DNA from: Candidatus Poribacteria bacterium
GTDB lineage: Bacteria; Poribacteria; WGA-4E; WGA-3G
NCBI GenBank assembly: GCA_009841255.1
Contig: VXMD01000082.1
Location: 1-64,000, forward strand
Direction of reading: 5' to 3'
Length of the DNA: 64,000 bases
Shown: in pieces, positions 5,644-61,125 of the stretch
Numbering within the stretch: position 1 is the stretch's first letter
Layout: every line of letters starts with the position of its first letter
Program-made: the position numbers and the translations under genes
The notes under the pieces: generated by a model
The model's input: only the letters and a program-made list of their open reading frames with translations
The model's database searches: none
Told to the model about the DNA's origin: nothing

Positions 5644-5748
5644 TTTTTTATCTTTCCTTGCGGTTCGGTTCGGCGGGTTTGGGGTTTGGCGTTCCAGCCC
5701 GTGTATCTGAAAAAATACCCCAGTAAAAACCCCTCCATTTCATTACGG
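5644..5748 (-). repeat. Leader repeat (family A), ThuA copy
   Basis: Reading toward the gene: a stretch containing CGTAATGAAATGGAG, a variable middle, then CCGCAAGGAAAGATAAAAAA directly abutting the ThuA ATG. The AAGG core sits where a Shine-Dalgarno site would be. It shares its 3' end with copies at 12468, 17453, 18528, 24030, 33078, 39325, 60273 and 60999. Confidence 0.75.
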
Positions 5749-7020: not shown

Positions 7021-7098
7021 TAAAAACTCCTATGAGATAGTTATGAGTTGTCAGTTAAAGAGTCCTCGACGTATATTCTATTTCTCTTATGACAACCG

Positions 7099-10829: not shown

Positions 10830-11006
10830 TTCCCCCTTTATTGCGATATTCTACCAGAACACGCATGTTAAAGTCAAGCATTTGGTGTGCATTCGAGAGG
10901 GCTATTAGTTTTCCATACTTCAAGTTCACTGGATCGTAGTAGGGAAACCCTGCGCAAGTCGCGCGTGGACTTGCGGGACAATGCCCGTTATATACACCCT
11001 TAGAAT

Positions 11007-11022
11007 GTGCGATGAATCGCAC
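11007..11022 (+). repeat. Palindrome GTGCGATGAATCGCAC, copy 1
   Basis: 7-bp perfect stem with a 2-nt centre, followed by GACTACAAAC. The surrounding ~50 bases, starting at TGCCCGTTATAT, align with 28580-28640, where the second copy sits just upstream of the heme O synthase gene. Confidence 0.7.
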
Positions 11023-11103
11023 GACTACAAACACATTCATGTGTCGCGAGTCGTAGATAACTCCTACACGTAAACTGAATGGCTTTATCCAGAGATAAAA
11101 ATG

Positions 11104-11132
11104 TTGACAGGAGACTGTGCATCGCGTATAAT
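11104..11132 (+). promoter_or_regulatory. Consensus sigma70 promoter of the oxidoreductase
   Basis: TTGACA (11104-11109), 17-base spacer, TATAAT (11127-11132): a full consensus match. Predicted transcription start near 11139, giving a ~64-nt leader that ends in AAGGAGG before the ATG at 11203. The plus-strand SDR gene follows on the same strand. Confidence 0.9.
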
Positions 11133-12467: not shown

Positions 12468-12553
12468 GTAGCCTGCAACAACGGCGCAGGCGGATATAAG
12501 GAAAGGCACATCAATACCCAAAACCGTCTGACCGAACCGCAAGGAATAATTAA
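12468..12553 (+). repeat. Leader repeat (family A), SDR copy
   Basis: Starts GTAGCCTGC, forms a GCCTGC/GCAGGC hairpin, runs GGCGGAT, then a variable middle, and ends AACCGCAAGGAATAATTAA directly against the ATG at 12554. It is the only family-A copy on the plus strand that serves a plus-strand gene, which shows that element and gene orientation go together. Confidence 0.8.
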
Positions 12554-17452: not shown

Positions 17453-17562
17453 CTTTTAAACGTTCCTTGCGGTTTTTTAATTATACCTTGCGGTTCGGTC
17501 AGGTGGGTCTGATAAATCAAGGACTTTTCCGTAGATCCGCCTGCGCCGTTGTTGCAGGCTAC
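17453..17562 (-). repeat. Leader repeat (family A) with duplicated end box, zinc-ribbon copy
   Basis: Read toward the gene: GTAGCCTGC hairpin, GGCGGAT, variable middle, CCGCAAGGTATAATTAAAAA, then a second box CCGCAAGGAACGTTTAAAAG abutting the ATG. The terminal ~20-bp box is therefore tandemly duplicated, as also at 60273-60381. Confidence 0.8.
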
Positions 17563-17578
17563 ACGCATGGTACCACCA

Positions 17579-17609
17579 ATTTTAATTATACCTTGCGGTT
17601 AAACAACGT
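17579..17609 (-). repeat. Leader repeat (family A), solitary partial copy
   Basis: AACCGCAAGGTATAATTAAA on the minus strand, between the Mrp gene and the zinc-ribbon copy of the same repeat. No start codon follows it closely, so it is not acting as a leader here. Confidence 0.6.
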
Positions 17610-17633
17610 CAATGCGTATTTCAAGGGCACAAA

Positions 17634-18527
17634 CTAACAGTTTGTGCTACCTTCAAAAAATGTTTGAACTTTTTCAGCCACTGTCATGAGTACCTTACTC
17701 GCGGGAGCGTCCGGATATTTATCAAGATACAGCGTTCCCTCATCACCCGCACGGGCGAGTCTTGGATCAAAGGGCACACTGCCCAAAAGACGCTGCTGGA
17801 ATGCGGGGTCCAGTGTCTGGTCGGCGGAAAAGAGGGGTTCCTCCTCGCCACAGTGTTGGCAGACATAGAACGCCATATTTTCGACAACACCGATGATTGG
17901 AACTTTGAGAATGTCCCTCGCCATTGTTACCGATTTCTTGACGATGAGTTGCGATACCTCAGACGGGATTGTCACAACGACGACACCGCCAAGGTCAGGG
18001 ATGAGTTCTGCCACGTTCGGAAGTCGATCGGTTCCGGGTGGCAGATCGAGGAGGAGATAATCCAGCGTTCCCCACTCGGTATCGGCGATGAACTCTCGAA
18101 GCGCGCCGACCTCCATCGTGCTCCGCCACGTGAACGCATCCTTCTGGATGTGAGCATTCCAGAGTACCGGTGCATCGTCCTCTGCTAAGAGCAAATCCAT
18201 AGAGATAAGCTTGGTGCCGAGTTCGGTAATCGCAGGTTTGACGCCCGCTGGCGTATATTCCAGCGTCGCGTCGCGGACCCCCATCATCTTGGCAAGCGTC
18301 GGTCCATTGATATCAGCATCAACGACCCCCACAGTGTTCCCCTTCCGCGTGAGTGCGGTGGCGAGGTTCGCAGTGAGTGCGCTCTTACCGACACCGCCTT
18401 TCCCGCTCATAATGGCGACCGTGTGCTTGACAGAGACGAGCCGTTTCTGGAGTCTGCTCATCTGTGCCGTGACTTGCCCGATAATGTTGGAGCCAGCATC
18501 GCTGGGTAACTCTTTGTAAGTTCTCAT
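17634..18527 (-). CDS. Mrp/NBP35-type P-loop ATPase (Fe-S cluster carrier)
   Basis: 297 residues. The deviant Walker A is M-S-G-K-G-G-V-G-K-S (about residues 41-50), then V-D-A-D-I-N-G-P-T (Walker A' region), L-L-L-D-L-P-P-G-T (Walker B) and a C-terminal C-x-x-C in Y-V-C-Q-H-C-G that in homologues binds a bridging [4Fe-4S] cluster. Family members deliver clusters to apoproteins. It lacks the N-terminal DUF59 domain seen in many bacterial Mrp proteins. The position between the PCP_red gene and the cytochrome cluster fits a role in metalloprotein maturation, which is inference. Confidence 0.92.
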   Translation of the reverse strand: MRTYKELPSDAGSNIIGQVTAQMSRLQKRLVSVKHTVAIMSGKGGVGKSALTANLATALTRKGNTVGVVDADINGPTLAKMMGVRDATLEYTPAGVKPAITELGTKLISMDLLLAEDDAPVLWNAHIQKDAFTWRSTMEVGALREFIADTEWGTLDYLLLDLPPGTDRLPNVAELIPDLGGVVVVTIPSEVSQLIVKKSVTMARDILKVPIIGVVENMAFYVCQHCGEEEPLFSADQTLDPAFQQRLLGSVPFDPRLARAGDEGTLYLDKYPDAPASKVLMTVAEKVQTFFEGSTNC

Positions 18528-18618
18528 TATTTTTAATTTTACCTTGCGGTTAAATAACGACCGTCTGAACCCTCAAGTCCGTTTCTCAAATCCGCCCTCC
18601 GCTACGCTTACGGGCTAC
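18528..18618 (-). repeat. Leader repeat (family A), Mrp copy
   Basis: Read toward the gene: GTAGCCCGTAAGCGTAGCGG, GGGCGGAT, variable middle, then AACCGCAAGGTAAAATTAAA ending a few bases before the ATG at 18527. The 5' module differs from the GTAGCCTGC version, so the family has at least two interchangeable 5' ends. Confidence 0.78.
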
Positions 18619-22124: not shown

Positions 22125-24029
22125 TCAGTCCTGATCTGGCGGTTGATAGTACTGTCCAAGCACCTCATTGGCGAGACTTCTGCCGTCCTCAATGACGCGT
22201 GCGGCGAAATCGAGCGTAACTTGCGTAACGTTGTTCTCTTGCGCTCGCTGCTCAATCCGAGTTTGCGTGATATTCCGCATAAATCCGGCAGGCACTAAGT
22301 TCAAGCGTTCGATTGCCTCTTGGGTCCACTGAACAGGACTCTCAATATCTTGAACGACTTCAGCGTTCTGAGCGTCGGTCTGCGCTTGCACGGCTCTGAG
22401 TTCGGGAGCGTCTTCGCGGACTGCCGCCGCTTCACCCATGCTGTCGTTGATAATCTCGGTTGCAAAGTCGTTTGTGATAGTCGCAATCTTTTGAGAACGT
22501 GCGGATTTCTCAATACGTGCTTTAACGTTTCGGCGCATATAACCGCGCGGAACACCGCGGAGTGCCTTTTTCGCCTGCTCCGACCACTGGAGTCGCACAC
22601 CGTCAAACGTCTCTTCTTCGGCGGTGCCACCTTCGTCTACAGCGACATTCTGCAGTGACCCCTTGTCCACCCTCTGGAAACGCTCCGGCGATGAACTACA
22701 GACGGGACATTTCACGGGTTGCTGGTTATGCGCGGCGTAACCACATTCGCCACAGATGTATGTCTGCACGGCATCCGATTCCAGCACCTTTTGCTCAGCG
22801 ATCTCTTTCGCGACGCGGGTCAACTTCTCAGAGGCACGCTGCGGCATGATTGCCTCCATCGCCATGTCAATGACGCTCTCGGTGATGACGGAATGCCCGC
22901 GTTCTATAGCGAACCGATGGACGGCTGTCTTCGCAATGCCCCGGACAAGCGGCGGTGCCTTCTCCATCCTATCCAAAGCCTCCTGCGTCCAGACGAGCGT
23001 CTCTTCCGCTTTCACATCGATTTGTGGGAAATAGCGTTGACTCGATAGGAGGACGTTGCAGGGTGCAAGGCGCAATAGATTCTCGGCGGTGCTACCGATA
23101 TCCATCTCCTGTTCACTGTGGACACCGATTCTGCCTAAGACGAGGAGCCACGGGTTTGTTTTTCGGGCGTATTGTAGAATTTTTTCGTAGGCTTTGCCAT
23201 CAAGTAGGGTGATTTTCAGGGCGTAGTCGTGTTCCTCTTTTGCGATAGAGCGTGCAACCTCCAAGTGCGACTGATAGATTTTCGCCAAACCTGTATCAAT
23301 CACCTCCTCGTGGAGTTGTTCCTGCTCTTTAAATCTGAAAGTCCGCGCGGCGCGTTCGGTGAGCACATTCACAACGGAATTGAAAACGATGTAGTGTAGA
23401 TAGGGATCGTAGACACCGACGGCTTCGACCTGTCTGTTGAACTTATGTCCGAGCTGTATCGCGGTTTTCAAACCTGAAAAAGATTCCGGACTCCCATCAA
23501 TCCCGACGAGGATATTTCCTTCGCTTTCTTCAACCGATTCAAGGTCCCGGACAACGAGCGTATCGGTATTAATACGGCGGACGACGCGTTCACAGACACC
23601 CCCGATGAGACTATCCTTGACGGCACCCATACCGAGCGCGCCCATAATCACAAGATCGTAATCGCCTTCCTGAATGTCTTCAACGAGTTTTATGAAGTGT
23701 TTGCCCTCCGGCATCCTCGCTTCAAACGGGATCCCAAATTCAGTGCACTTCTGTTTCATCACCTCAAGATAGGAATCCGAGATGAGTTGGAGTCCCATCG
23801 TAATGAGCGTATCGTGGATACGGCGTTGTTTCTCAAGCTCGACCTCGTCCTGATACTCCTCTGGCAGCGTATATTCCATCTGTTTAAAGCGAACATCGTG
23901 CATTTTTGCGGCGTAAACGTGCGAACCTACCAATTGGGACCCGAATTTCCGCGCGAACGCGACTGCCAGCGCGATACTCGCGTCGGAGTAGTCCGAATTG
24001 TCAACGGGTACGTAGATTTTTTTTATCAT
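22125..24029 (-). CDS. Tandem universal stress protein fused to three PCP_red domains and a rubredoxin-like zinc ribbon
   Basis: 634 residues. Two UspA domains: residues 1-160, with V-I-M-G-A-L-G-M-G as the ATP-binding-type loop, and 170-330, with L-V-L-G-R-I-G-V-H-S. Then a PCP_red domain (W-T-Q-E-A-L-D-R-M-E-K-A-P, ~345-395), a rubredoxin-like ribbon (C-G-E-C-G ... C-P-V-C, ~425-447), and two more PCP_red domains (W-S-E-Q-A-K-K-A-L, ~480-525; W-T-Q-E-A-I-E-R-L, ~565-610). UspA proteins respond to stress; PCP_red function is unknown. A single polypeptide with this order is unusual. It is the next gene after the cytochrome oxidase cluster, and its ATG follows a family-A leader repeat. Confidence 0.88.
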   Translation of the reverse strand: MIKKIYVPVDNSDYSDASIALAVAFARKFGSQLVGSHVYAAKMHDVRFKQMEYTLPEEYQDEVELEKQRRIHDTLITMGLQLISDSYLEVMKQKCTEFGIPFEARMPEGKHFIKLVEDIQEGDYDLVIMGALGMGAVKDSLIGGVCERVVRRINTDTLVVRDLESVEESEGNILVGIDGSPESFSGLKTAIQLGHKFNRQVEAVGVYDPYLHYIVFNSVVNVLTERAARTFRFKEQEQLHEEVIDTGLAKIYQSHLEVARSIAKEEHDYALKITLLDGKAYEKILQYARKTNPWLLVLGRIGVHSEQEMDIGSTAENLLRLAPCNVLLSSQRYFPQIDVKAEETLVWTQEALDRMEKAPPLVRGIAKTAVHRFAIERGHSVITESVIDMAMEAIMPQRASEKLTRVAKEIAEQKVLESDAVQTYICGECGYAAHNQQPVKCPVCSSSPERFQRVDKGSLQNVAVDEGGTAEEETFDGVRLQWSEQAKKALRGVPRGYMRRNVKARIEKSARSQKIATITNDFATEIINDSMGEAAAVREDAPELRAVQAQTDAQNAEVVQDIESPVQWTQEAIERLNLVPAGFMRNITQTRIEQRAQENNVTQVTLDFAARVIEDGRSLANEVLGQYYQPPDQD

Positions 24030-24116
24030 TTTTAAGCTTACCTTGCGGAGAAATAACGGGCGTTGGAACTTTAATATCCGTTGTTTATATCCGCCTGCGC
24101 CGTTGTTGCAGGCTAC
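24030..24116 (-). repeat. Leader repeat (family A), stress-protein copy
   Basis: Read toward the gene: GTAGCCTGC hairpin, GGCGGATAT, a middle with AACGGATATTAAAGTTCC, then TCCGCAAGGTAAGCTTAAAA abutting the ATG at 24029. One of the cleanest full-length copies (about 87 bp). Confidence 0.82.
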
Positions 24117-28570: not shown

Positions 28571-28606
28571 TTTTAAGTATTTGCCCGTTGTATGCACTTT
28601 CAGAAC

Positions 28607-28622
28607 GTGCGATGAATCGCAC
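28607..28622 (+). repeat. Palindrome GTGCGATGAATCGCAC, copy 2
   Basis: Identical to 11007-11022, with flanking TGCCCGTTGTATGCAC and GACTACGAAC also conserved. It sits in the gap between heme A synthase and heme O synthase genes. Confidence 0.7.
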
Positions 28623-28650
28623 GACTACGAACGTACTCACTATGTCTGTC

Positions 28651-32303: not shown

Positions 32304-33077
32304 TTAATGTGCTTGTGCAGACGCGGTGCGCGTTGCCCCGAAATACGTCAAAACACAAAACAGACCCGTAATCAGCAGAGAGAGTGTCCAAGCCGGTCCC
32401 TCTCCAATTGCCTGCGCGGCGGTGTCAAGGTAGAGGCACTGCCGAAAAGCGGCAAGCCCATATGTTAAGGGATTAAATTTCATCGTCCATTCTAACCAAC
32501 CGGGTACGCCCGTACTCGGAAAAAACGCGCCAGAGAGCAGCCAAATCGGAATCAGCAAGAGGTTCATAACTGCATGAAATCCCTGTGTTGAGTCCATCCG
32601 CCAAGCGATGAGCAGTCCGAGGTTTGTCAAACCAAACGCCAGAAGTGCCATTACACCGAGCGCGGTAAGGAGCGAGGCTGCACCGAATCGGATGCCGGTC
32701 ATGGGTGCGAACAGTAGTAACAGCACCCCTTGCAAGAGTGCTAACGTCGTGCCACCTAACGCTTGCGCGAGTACAATCTGCCACCTTGACAGCGGTGCCA
32801 CGAGTACACTTTGCAAAAAGCCTTCACGTCGGTCATTCACGACAGAGATTGTAGCGAAAATAGACGTAAAAAGCAAGACCAAAACGACGATACCGGGATA
32901 AAAATATTCGATATAACTGGGTCCATCCGCTGTACCAGAGGGCTGAAAAGAGGCACTCAAACCGCTCCCGATGAGTAACCACAGTACTAACGGTTGCGCG
33001 ATAGCACTGAAGAGTCGACTGCGTTGGCGATAAAACCTGATGACTTCGCGCCACCATATCGTTGCAATTGGTAGCAG
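32304..33077 (-). CDS. ABC-2 type transporter permease (predicted CTG start)
   Basis: 257 residues if started at CTG 33075-33077. The homologous N-terminus W-W-R-E-V-I-R-F-Y-R-Q-R-S-R-L-F lies upstream of the first in-frame ATG (32960), so the ATG version would lose ~39 residues including the first helix. Six hydrophobic segments. The region upstream is a family-A leader repeat ending CCGCAAGGTATAATTAAAAA, and a CTG stands where other copies have ATG. Partner of the ATPase gene directly upstream. Substrate unknown; the position inside the oxidase cluster suggests export of a cofactor or protection factor. Confidence 0.8.
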   Translation of the reverse strand: MLPIATIWWREVIRFYRQRSRLFSAIAQPLVLWLLIGSGLSASFQPSGTADGPSYIEYFYPGIVVLVLLFTSIFATISVVNDRREGFLQSVLVAPLSRWQIVLAQALGGTTLALLQGVLLLLFAPMTGIRFGAASLLTALGVMALLAFGLTNLGLLIAWRMDSTQGFHAVMNLLLIPIWLLSGAFFPSTGVPGWLEWTMKFNPLTYGLAAFRQCLYLDTAAQAIGEGPAWTLSLLITGLFCVLTYFGATRTASAQAH

Positions 33078-33156
33078 ATTTTTAATTATACCTTGCGGAG
33101 TAATGCAGTGGTTTTCACGCTGAGAGTGCCTTCCACCTATCCGCCCTCCATTTCAT
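33078..33156 (-). repeat. Leader repeat (family A), ABC permease copy
   Basis: Read toward the gene: AATGGAGGGCGGATAGG, variable middle, TACTCCGCAAGGTATAATTA and AAAAT, then CTG. The middle is close to the copy at 39437-39523. Confidence 0.8.
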
Positions 33157-34107
33157 TTACACGAACGGATTGCCTGTCAATTTTATGAATACGTCCTCCA
33201 GCGTCGGTCTTCCGAGTCGCACTGTCTGAATCTCATCTGGAAACGCCGCAACCACCTCACGGACGAACTCGTGTCCCCATTCACATTCAACACGCAGTTG
33301 GTTATCCGCCAGCACCGGCGAAACACCGAAACTCTCAGCAATCGCCATAGAAAGTGTTTCACCATTTTCACTTTCTATGATAACGACATCACCACCGACC
33401 TCTGCCTTGAGCTCATGTGGTGCTCCGAGAGCGACTAATTCGCCTGAATCCAGAATACCCACCCTGTCGCACGCCTCAGCATCCTCTAACAGATGCGTCG
33501 TCAGCAGAACGAGGATATCTTGTGTGTCAGCGAGTGCACCGAGATAATCATTGAGTTGTCGGCGTACAACTACATCTAACCCACTCGTCGGTTCATCAAG
33601 CAGTAAAACGCGCGGGGAATGGAGCAAAGCTTTTGCGATTTCAACTCGCTTTTGTAAACCGCCGGATAGGCGTTCAACCCGCTCCTTGCTCCTGTCCGAA
33701 ATGCCAAAACATTCGAGGAGTTCTGAAATTCGGTGACGCAGCATTTTGCCAGCAAGTCCATAGAGGTGGCCATGGTGCCGTAAATTCTCGACAACCGTGA
33801 GTTTGCCATCCAGCCCCGGGTGTTGAAAAACAACACCTAAGAGATCCCGAACCTCCTTCACCTCAGCCGCCACGTCATATCCGAAGATACGAACAGTGCC
33901 CGATGTTATCGGAATCAGCGTGGACAGAATCTTAAAAAGGGTTGTTTTTCCACTCCCGTTCGGTCCAAGAAGCCCGAAAACCTCGCCGCAGGAGACGCTA
34001 AAACTGACAGTGTCAAGCGCGCGCCGCGTCTGATAGGAATGTGAGAGATTTTCTACCTCAATTCGGCTGTCAGTCGTTATGGAATGTAAAACCTCTGTGT
34101 CTGCCAC
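33157..34107 (-). CDS. ABC transporter ATP-binding protein (DrrA/CcmA-like)
   Basis: 316 residues. Walker A G-P-N-G-S-G-K-T-T, signature L-S-G-G-L-Q-K-R, Walker B V-L-L-L-D-E-P-T-S-G and the switch His in T-T-H-L-L-E-D-A. A ~90-residue C-terminal extension (D-V-V-I-I-E-S-E-N-G-E ... L-E-D-V-F-I-K-L-T-G) is usual for exporter ATPases that pair with ABC-2 permeases. It forms an exporter with the following gene. CcmA-like ATPases act in cytochrome c maturation, but this could equally be a drug- or copper-type exporter (compare NosF). Confidence 0.93.
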   Translation of the reverse strand: MADTEVLHSITTDSRIEVENLSHSYQTRRALDTVSFSVSCGEVFGLLGPNGSGKTTLFKILSTLIPITSGTVRIFGYDVAAEVKEVRDLLGVVFQHPGLDGKLTVVENLRHHGHLYGLAGKMLRHRISELLECFGISDRSKERVERLSGGLQKRVEIAKALLHSPRVLLLDEPTSGLDVVVRRQLNDYLGALADTQDILVLLTTHLLEDAEACDRVGILDSGELVALGAPHELKAEVGGDVVIIESENGETLSMAIAESFGVSPVLADNQLRVECEWGHEFVREVVAAFPDEIQTVRLGRPTLEDVFIKLTGNPFV

Positions 34108-37543: not shown

Positions 37544-37815
37544 TTTTTTAATTTTTTTATTATTAAGCTTCTGTCCTGCCCTCCGCTACGCTTACGGGCA
37601 GACTCCTGACAGAAGCACAACGGAAATAAGAACATGTTCAGTATAGGACTAAAAACCAAACCCGCAACAATACGCAGAAATACCCAAGCAAAAACACCCC
37701 AAGCAAAGACTTTCTTCGCATTAGATTTCAGCGTTTGCAAAAACACGCAGGCGACTCGAACACAGAAAGCGCGAAGTCTCAAATTGCGTTACTTATCCAC
37801 AAGGTAAAATTAAAA
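37544..37815. other. Intergenic region with inverted repeat
   Basis: GCTTCTGTC (37567-37575) and GACAGAAGC (37608-37616) enclose CTCCGCTACGCTTACGGGC, the alternative 5' module of the leader repeat. Toward 37815 the plus strand shows CACAAGGTAAAATTAAAA, a decayed family-A end. No gene. Confidence 0.5.
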
Positions 37816-39324: not shown

Positions 39325-39413
39325 TTTTTAATTATTCCTTGCGGTTCGATCAGGTAAGTTTGGACTTTCATCTGCCTCTCCATAGATCCGCCTGCGCCGG
39401 TGTTGCAGGCTAC
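39325..39413 (-). repeat. Leader repeat (family A), diheme cytochrome copy
   Basis: Read toward the gene: GTAGCCTGC hairpin, GGCGGAT, variable middle, AACCGCAAGGAATAATTAAA and AA, then the ATG at 39324. Confidence 0.82.
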
Positions 39414-39436
39414 TGCTTTTGATTATTTTCTAAATT

Positions 39437-39523
39437 GTAGTCCGTAACGTAGTGGAGGACGGATAGGTGGAACGCACATAATAGTTCAAACGCCCTTTAT
39501 TACTCCGCAAGGTACAATTAAAA
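39437..39523 (+). repeat. Leader repeat (family A), inverted copy without a gene
   Basis: Plus orientation: GTAGTCCGTAACGTAGTGGA, GGACGGATAGG, middle, TACTCCGCAAGGTACAATTA. It ends against the stop codon of the minus-strand CydA-like gene instead of a start. With the copy at 39325-39413 it forms a tail-to-tail pair. Confidence 0.75.
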
Positions 39524-39524
39524 A

Positions 39525-48564: not shown

Positions 48565-48599
48565 GAGTAGGGATAAGGGATCGCTCCCTTATCCCTCTC
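48565..48599 (-). ncRNA. Group II intron domain VI with branch-point adenosine
   Basis: AGGGATAAGGGA (48569-48580) and TCCCTTATCCCT (48585-48596) form a perfect 12-bp stem with a four-base loop. Outer GAG/CTC pairs enclose a single unpaired A (minus strand, position 48568), the expected lariat branch point. Confidence 0.85.
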
Positions 48600-48602
48600 C
48601 CC

Positions 48603-48637
48603 AAACCGTGCTTGCTACTTTCGCAGACACACGGCTT
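48603..48637 (-). ncRNA. Group II intron domain V
   Basis: Minus strand: AAGCCGTGTG at the 5' side with the catalytic AGC, a GAAA tetraloop, and GCACGGTTT closing the stem. About 35 nt, against the usual 34. This is the active-site hairpin of group II ribozymes. Confidence 0.85.
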
Positions 48638-48667
48638 TCCATGTCAACAATAACGATAATTTTACTG

Positions 48668-60272: not shown

Positions 60273-60381
60273 GTTTTTAATTTACCTTGCGGATTCTTAA
60301 TTTTACCTTGCGGAGGAACAACGTGCGCTTGGACTATAACGTGCCTCCCTCATATCCGCCTGCGCCGATGTTGCAGGCTAC
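60273..60381 (-). repeat. Leader repeat (family A) with duplicated end box, bicupin copy
   Basis: Read toward the gene: GTAGCCTGCAACATCGGC, GCAGGCGGATATGAGG, middle, GTTGTTCCTCCGCAAGG, TAAAATTAAGAAT, second CCGCAAGGTAAATTAAAAAC, then ATG. Confidence 0.82.
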
Positions 60382-60416
60382 GTTCGTGCCAACCTAAGGT
60401 AGCCGCGTAAGTCCTG

Positions 60417-60998: not shown

Positions 60999-61125
60999 CT
61001 TTTAATCATTCCTTGCGGAGGAACAACAAGCGTTTCGACTTTGACGTGCGTTCCTCAAATCCGCCCTCCAAATGTAAAGCAAAGACAAATTATGCCATTT
61101 AAGGCATAATTTCATTACGGGCTAC
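60999..61125 (-). repeat. Leader repeat (family A), rsmD copy
   Basis: Read toward the gene: GTAGCCCGTAATGAAATTAT, a hairpin ATTATGCC/GGCATAAT, GGAGGGCGGATTTGAGG, middle, GTTGTTCCTCCGCAAGG, AATGATTAAAAG, then ATG. Confidence 0.8.

Follow-up and report, generated by a model that had tools for sequence, protein, structure and literature searches.

Intergenic repeats of bacteria bring promoters, stop codons and hairpins for mRNA stability. The element described here resembles the GTAG-tagged REP repeats (RAYT, IS200/IS605-type Y1): many of its 5′ modules are GTAG-headed short hairpins, and like them it is intergenic, of high copy number and near coding regions. Its difference from the GTAG REPs is a constant 3′ half of 67 nt behind the hairpin, with a fixed end that bears a Shine-Dalgarno (SD) sequence and abuts starts at a fixed distance. 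This constant half is not a REP. The counts of Y1 transposases do not follow the copy number of the element. For GTAG REPs it is reported that they provide neighbouring genes with stop codons (PMC3733652).

The pneumococcal BOX, RUP and SPRITE repeats (MITE-like) are also short, modular, structured, non-autonomous and present in high copy. BOX overlaps with the ends of genes, where it encodes stop codons, and for BOX and RUP both terminal inverted repeats and target-site duplications were reported (PMC3049150). In contrast, no target-site duplication stands out in our element, and inverted ends are a minority: among 155 boxes there were 12 outward pairs within 350 nt and no facing ones. One such outward pair occupies positions 39326-39523 of the window, as we call the whole stretch of 64,000 nt that was analyzed. 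The hallmark here is instead an SD at a fixed distance.

The TAACTGA direct repeats of marine Beggiatoaceae are dispersed, lie mostly directly before start codons, and have been proposed to play a role in translation (PMC4679880). They are the nearest precedent for repeats placed right before start codons. However, they consist of heptamers in tandem and have little SD character, and an SD is missing from most of the genes that follow them (PMC4679880), whereas the element here has AAGG 12 nt before the start and a structured constant 3′ half. TAACTGA-like direct repeats were also detected in the window itself, at 7044, 26136, 29598, 32248, 46887 and 61149 (seven matches against 0.3 expected), and in relatives some of these repeats immediately precede starts at which this genome has the element. 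The literature searched, which covered few subscription papers, yielded no repeat supplying an SD at a fixed distance and no such repeat of Poribacteria. The element is best read as a variant of the REP/MITE-like repeats in which a translation-initiation end is built in.

Source and Scope of the Data

The window is part of a 226-kb contig in the 5.73-Mb genome of a Candidatus Poribacteria bacterium, a sponge symbiont. Gene-level statistics come from 849 kb (contigs C32, C26 and C82, including the window), where genes were called with a home-made gene caller; beyond these 849 kb, the figures for this genome are whole-genome pattern counts. Elements in the 849 kb were called with a weight matrix, which gave 151 elements against one in the control. 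The public contigs that bear the box are all labelled as Poribacteria.

Copies of the Element in the Window

An earlier note on this DNA had described nine copies of a repeat, each abutting a start codon, usually with 12 bases from AAGG to ATG, and always in the same orientation as the gene. All nine were recovered when the dispersed repeats and inverted pairs of the window were listed (Table 1). Eight of them do adjoin an ATG, while the copy at 33080-33098 has none beside it. The distance of 12 bases holds for five of the eight; the others have 9 (ATG 12554), 11 (24029) and 14 (18527). The two tandemly duplicated end boxes (17465/17486 and 60285/60306) are genuine, and the variable 5′ modules are indeed swapped between copies. 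The constant orientation, by contrast, did not hold, as two plus-strand copies in the window abut stop codons of minus-strand genes. Nor does it hold genome-wide: among the 151 elements of the 849 kb the next gene was on the same strand for 109 and on the opposite strand for 34, and eight elements lay inside called genes.

Boxes at 17580-17598, 37797-37815 (plus strand) and 39505-39523 (plus strand) had been overlooked. Altogether the window has 15 occurrences of CCGCAAGG, where 1.9 would be expected and none of 100 shuffles reached 15. Two divergent elements make up most of the 200 nt between the cytochrome c and cytochrome bd genes (39325-39524), one with its box on an ATG and the other with its box on a stop codon. 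Relatives start the ABC-2 transporter gene with ATG, which is missing from the window copy, where AAGG-N13-CTG is read. Judged from these sequences, the ATG seems to have been lost where the element abuts (33060-33098, minus strand), and AAGG-N13-CTG may be the start of this gene.

Table 1. Positions of the element copies in the window and the coding sequences beside them.
Feature	Position	Strand	Adjoining coding sequence and AAGG-to-start spacing
Element core, box 5645-5663	5645..5711	-	ThuA-domain gene, ATG 5643, spacing 12
Element with GTAGCCTGC module, CCGCAAGG at 12537-12544	12468..12553	+	Short-chain dehydrogenase, ATG 12554, spacing 9
Element, end box duplicated (CCGCAAGG at 17465-17472 and 17486-17493)	17453..17562	-	PCP_red-domain gene, ATG 17452
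Weaker element in tandem, directly upstream of the 17453..17562 copy; box 17580-17598	17580..17646	-	
Element core, box 18531-18549	18531..18597	-	Mrp/NUBPL-type gene, ATG 18527, spacing 14
Element with 5′ hairpin module GTAGCCTGCAACAACGGCGCAGGC (to 24116), 3′ half and box CCGCAAGGTAAGCTTAAAA (24030-24048)	24030..24116	-	
Universal-stress-protein gene putatively served by the 24030..24116 element	ATG 24029		AAGG-N11-ATG
Element before ABC-2 transporter frame	33080..33157	-	AAGG-N13-CTG, no adjoining ATG
Element core, box 37797-37815 (CCACAAGG; CCACAAGGTAAAATTAAAA)	37749..37815	+	Abuts stop (37816) of minus-strand cytochrome c gene
Element of divergent pair	39326..39412	-	Box abuts cytochrome c gene ATG 39324, spacing 12
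Partner in divergent pair, box 39505-39523	39437..39523	+	Abuts stop codon 39525-39527 of minus-strand cytochrome bd gene
Element, end box duplicated (60285-60292, 60306-60313)	60273..60382	-	Cupin gene, ATG 60272
Element core, box 61000-61018	61000..61069	-	RsmD-type (Cons_hypoth95) gene, ATG 60998, spacing 12

Architecture and Predicted Folding

The 3′ half of the element is a near-constant stretch of about 67 nt, GGCGGAT...CCGCAAGG-WANNNTTAAAA. At its end, CCGCAAGG-W-A-NNN-TT-AAAA, the positions of CCGCAAGG, A10, T14 and the As are nearly invariant and NNN is free. In front of it stand hairpin repeats, often GTAG/REP-like, as exchangeable 5′ modules: GTAGC[CTG] stands before the hairpin in 56 of the 151 elements and NYAGCC in 29, and the remainder are of other types. 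They differ among species at one identical site.

According to the fold predicted by RNAalifold, GCGG pairs with CCGC of the box, and there is an additional inner helix. Mutual information ties both arms together, chiefly as a contrast of two subfamilies; within the subfamilies, arm pairing was hardly above permuted alignments (z 0.7 for type I and up to 2.7 for type II). The loop sequence is variable. A search of 4,227 Rfam families gave no match to the element up to E = 1. A regulatory RNA role is possible, but these results do not support it. Elsewhere in the window, at 48567-48639 on the minus strand, a group II intron domain V (Rfam RF00029) scored 46.5 bits, above the gathering score.

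Copy Number and Distribution

With up to three mismatches, the box CCGCAAGGTATAATTAAAA was found 550 times in this genome, against one occurrence of the reversed pattern. The degenerate exact pattern CCGCAAGG-WANNNWWAAA gave 554 matches against none for its reverse, and 6,012 across 38 genomes of the genus, where the number of copies per genome ranges from 2 (G022) to 554. Outside the genus box counts are at chance level, with the exception of one exact match in genome G047. In OX638352.1 (2652-3522), seven element boxes follow one another head to tail at a constant period of 142 nt.

Fit to Gene Starts and Stops

Across the 38 genus genomes ATG lies exactly 12 nt past AAGG at 2,571 of 6,012 boxes (43%), while the reversed-pattern control gave 0; the share in this genome alone is 213 of 554. 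When the first in-frame ATG was taken for the 109 same-strand elements, it was found exactly 12 nt past AAGG in 43 and at 10-16 nt in 56. A small second peak of the distance, at 33 nt, is due to the duplicated box. Relatives have spacing 12 with an open frame at 82 of 267 boxes and spacing 11-13 at 109. The idea that an SD is brought to a near-fixed distance before the starts of unrelated genes was thereby upheld: the fit is far above chance and lies inside the native spacing range. We also checked whether the elements are random relative to starts, and they are not.

Starts are not the only sites of this fit. For convergent genes, 17 of 27 stop codons fall between -16 and +12 nt from the TTAAAA end, and in seven cases the TTA of the element itself serves as the stop codon. 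The 5′ side has no such fit, with only 2 of 67 upstream stops in the same range. At its 3′ end the element thus adjoins both kinds of coding edge: it lies about one base before a start codon or at a convergent stop. Since the stops of convergent genes are abutted nearly as tightly, the tight fit to coding sequence does not come from a role as ribosome-binding site alone.

A Proposed Role as Shine-Dalgarno Donor

Native genes have an SD in 58% of cases against 16% in shuffles, and native AAGG mostly stands 6-13 nt from the start, the spacing peaking at 9-10. The 12-nt spacing of the element, slightly above this peak, looks workable and appears to be set by the geometry of the element. AAGG is followed by A in 67% of start-adjacent copies and in 40% of other copies (Fisher p 0.001, this genome), and relatives repeat the bias of AAGGA over AAGGT beside starts (p 0.005). 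Compared with native SDs, AAGG of the element is predicted to be less paired (unpaired 0.53 vs. 0.40, p 6e-5). It is invariant in copies away from starts as well, which means that translation is not the cause of its conservation.

If the element supplies a ribosome-binding site, then we can ask: Do relatives without the element keep one of their own? The answer is divided. Among 44 element-free orthologous starts, 18 have their own SD 4-mer and 26 have none. An SD is therefore not always needed, and the element would sometimes replace a ribosome-binding site and sometimes add one. At the stress-protein gene, several element-free species have aatgaggaaaaacATG. Clean insertions at window positions 12537 and 18549 have split two gene pairs that overlap, stop on start, in the element-free relative G024, and at both split pairs AAGG of the element is the obvious candidate for the SD.

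As an inference from sequence, these observations support the following mechanism. Where the element stands before a start codon, AAGG(A) just downstream of the predicted hairpin would act as the Shine-Dalgarno sequence and the A/T tract as an unstructured spacer. The element would become the translation-initiation region of the gene, replacing a native SD that has been displaced or adding one where none existed. Start-adjacent copies would be kept longer than others, and the element would be partly domesticated as a leader. From the sequence pattern, at about 40% of some 550 copies it has probably become the translation start signal of an unrelated gene.

Gain, Loss and Possible Retention

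The view of the earlier note that this is a dispersed element is borne out, and the copy counts and empty orthologous sites show that it varies in number and position among related species. Copy numbers from 2 to 554 together with these empty sites indicate that copies come and go; clean empty sites were found in species about 90% identical in the flanking genes. In being short, non-coding, non-autonomous, and gained or lost among relatives, the element resembles MITEs of the BOX/RUP kind. The start-adjacent share falls as copy number rises (Spearman rho -0.77 for 36 genomes with at least 15 copies, a value uncorrected for phylogeny); pooled, it is 52% in low-copy genomes and 38% in high-copy ones. 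The simplest reading of this trend is that start-adjacent copies outlive others. A direct test of retention, by sharing with close relatives, gave 12/43 vs. 4/25 (p 0.38, few loci).

In the search for target-site duplications, flank repeats were no better than in swapped controls, with the exception of tandem copies. A single locus (C82:106851) has a duplication of about 20 nt comprising the SD-to-ATG stretch. The Y1 transposase PF01797 is present in 32 of 35 genus genomes. It is absent from the high-copy genomes G013 and G033, and there are five in G022 with its two boxes. These counts do not track the copy number of the element, and a Y1 transposase is a doubtful driver.

Family B and the TTAAAA Junction

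A second hairpin repeat, here family B, ends in CAGTCCAGGAGNCCATAAATTAAAAA, often followed by ATG, and has AGGAG inside. It was found near 7047 in locus L274 (G033), near 11111 in locus L263 (G010), and at G000:C26:144257-144281 on the minus strand. Family B is present in 35 of 37 genus genomes and missing from G022 and G028, both of which have only 2-3 boxes of family A, that is, of the element with CCGCAAGG. At the ABC-2 and SDR starts relatives have family B where this genome has family A. The common absences and common start sites of the two families point to shared machinery or a shared target.

Several element-free orthologues retain TTAAAA(N)ATG. Among native starts of C32, C26 and C82, TTAAAA lies within 3 nt of ATG in 16 of 404 box-free genes, several of them behind other hairpin repeats. 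A further dispersed repeat, TGCCCGTTNTATNCAC...GTGCGATGAATCGCACGACTAC, is located in the window at 10982-11039 and 28582-28639, and in reverse complement it also stands before a TTAAAA-ATG start in another part of the genome. As a speculation, on balance rather unlikely, at least families A and B would belong to one class of mobile elements aimed at coding-sequence edges, having their own translation-initiation end and sharing machinery and the TTAAAA-ATG junction. If this were true, the spread of edge-aimed elements would, in each genome, rewire start signals at hundreds of unrelated genes.

Alternative Explanations

The element could be nothing but a selfish repeat that inserts or survives preferentially at coding-sequence edges, for example at an AT-rich TTAAAA-like target, with AAGG incidental and expression hardly affected. 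This would suit a 3′ end that abuts convergent stops as well as starts, a 5′ side that does not, and the equal conservation of AAGG and TTAAAA in copies off starts; it would also suit the TTAAAA(N)ATG junction kept by many element-free orthologues and found behind other hairpin repeats. However, the AAGGA bias beside starts and the higher start-adjacent share in low-copy genomes speak against it, as do the split gene pairs, where insertion displaces the native SD, hence a replacement is needed. We regard this explanation as possible but doubtful. A structured regulatory leader, an RNA switch or protein-binding hairpin placing many genes under common post-transcriptional control, is improbable, and the common translational control suggested in the earlier note found no support. 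About a fifth of the copies face stop codons, the loop is variable, the element has no Rfam match, and the pairing of arms within subfamilies hardly beats permutation, although the GCGG/CCGC stem and inner helix are predicted, arm changes are linked at the subfamily level, and at one gene the differing element versions of the species each retain complementary arms (by eye).

It is very improbable that the box represents a sigma70 -10 element (TANNNT) of leaderless mRNAs and the whole element a mobile promoter. A2 and T6 are conserved with free NNN between them, and many boxes read TATAAT or TAAAAT. Yet native genes have a clear SD and no TANNNT/-10 peak at the corresponding distance, beside starts the first base is mostly A (67%, against 30% T), and no -35-like columns appear 17 nt upstream. 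This promoter reading was disfavoured on account of the native signals and of the preference of start-adjacent boxes for A. Also very improbable is an immobile origin, in which the leaders are ancestral and have been homogenised through gene conversion or recombination among the copies. Many species occupy the same sites with different 5′ modules, tandem boxes are identical, and target-site duplication is not detectable, all of which would favour it, but a range of 2 to 554 copies inside one genus and the clean empty sites in species so similar in their flanking genes speak against it. Taken as a whole, we find it fairly probable that the element is a genus-restricted, non-autonomous, modular dispersed repeat whose SD-bearing 3′ end acts as translation-initiation region beside starts, and that it is partly domesticated as a leader.

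Significance

If this is true, more than 200 genes of one genome have an SD brought to a fixed distance from their start codons by a high-copy repeat, which would be a route for selfish DNA to reshape translation. With copy numbers from 2 to about 550 among related species and with empty orthologous sites, the genus amounts to a natural experiment. It allows us to ask how translation signals get replaced and whether expression changes.
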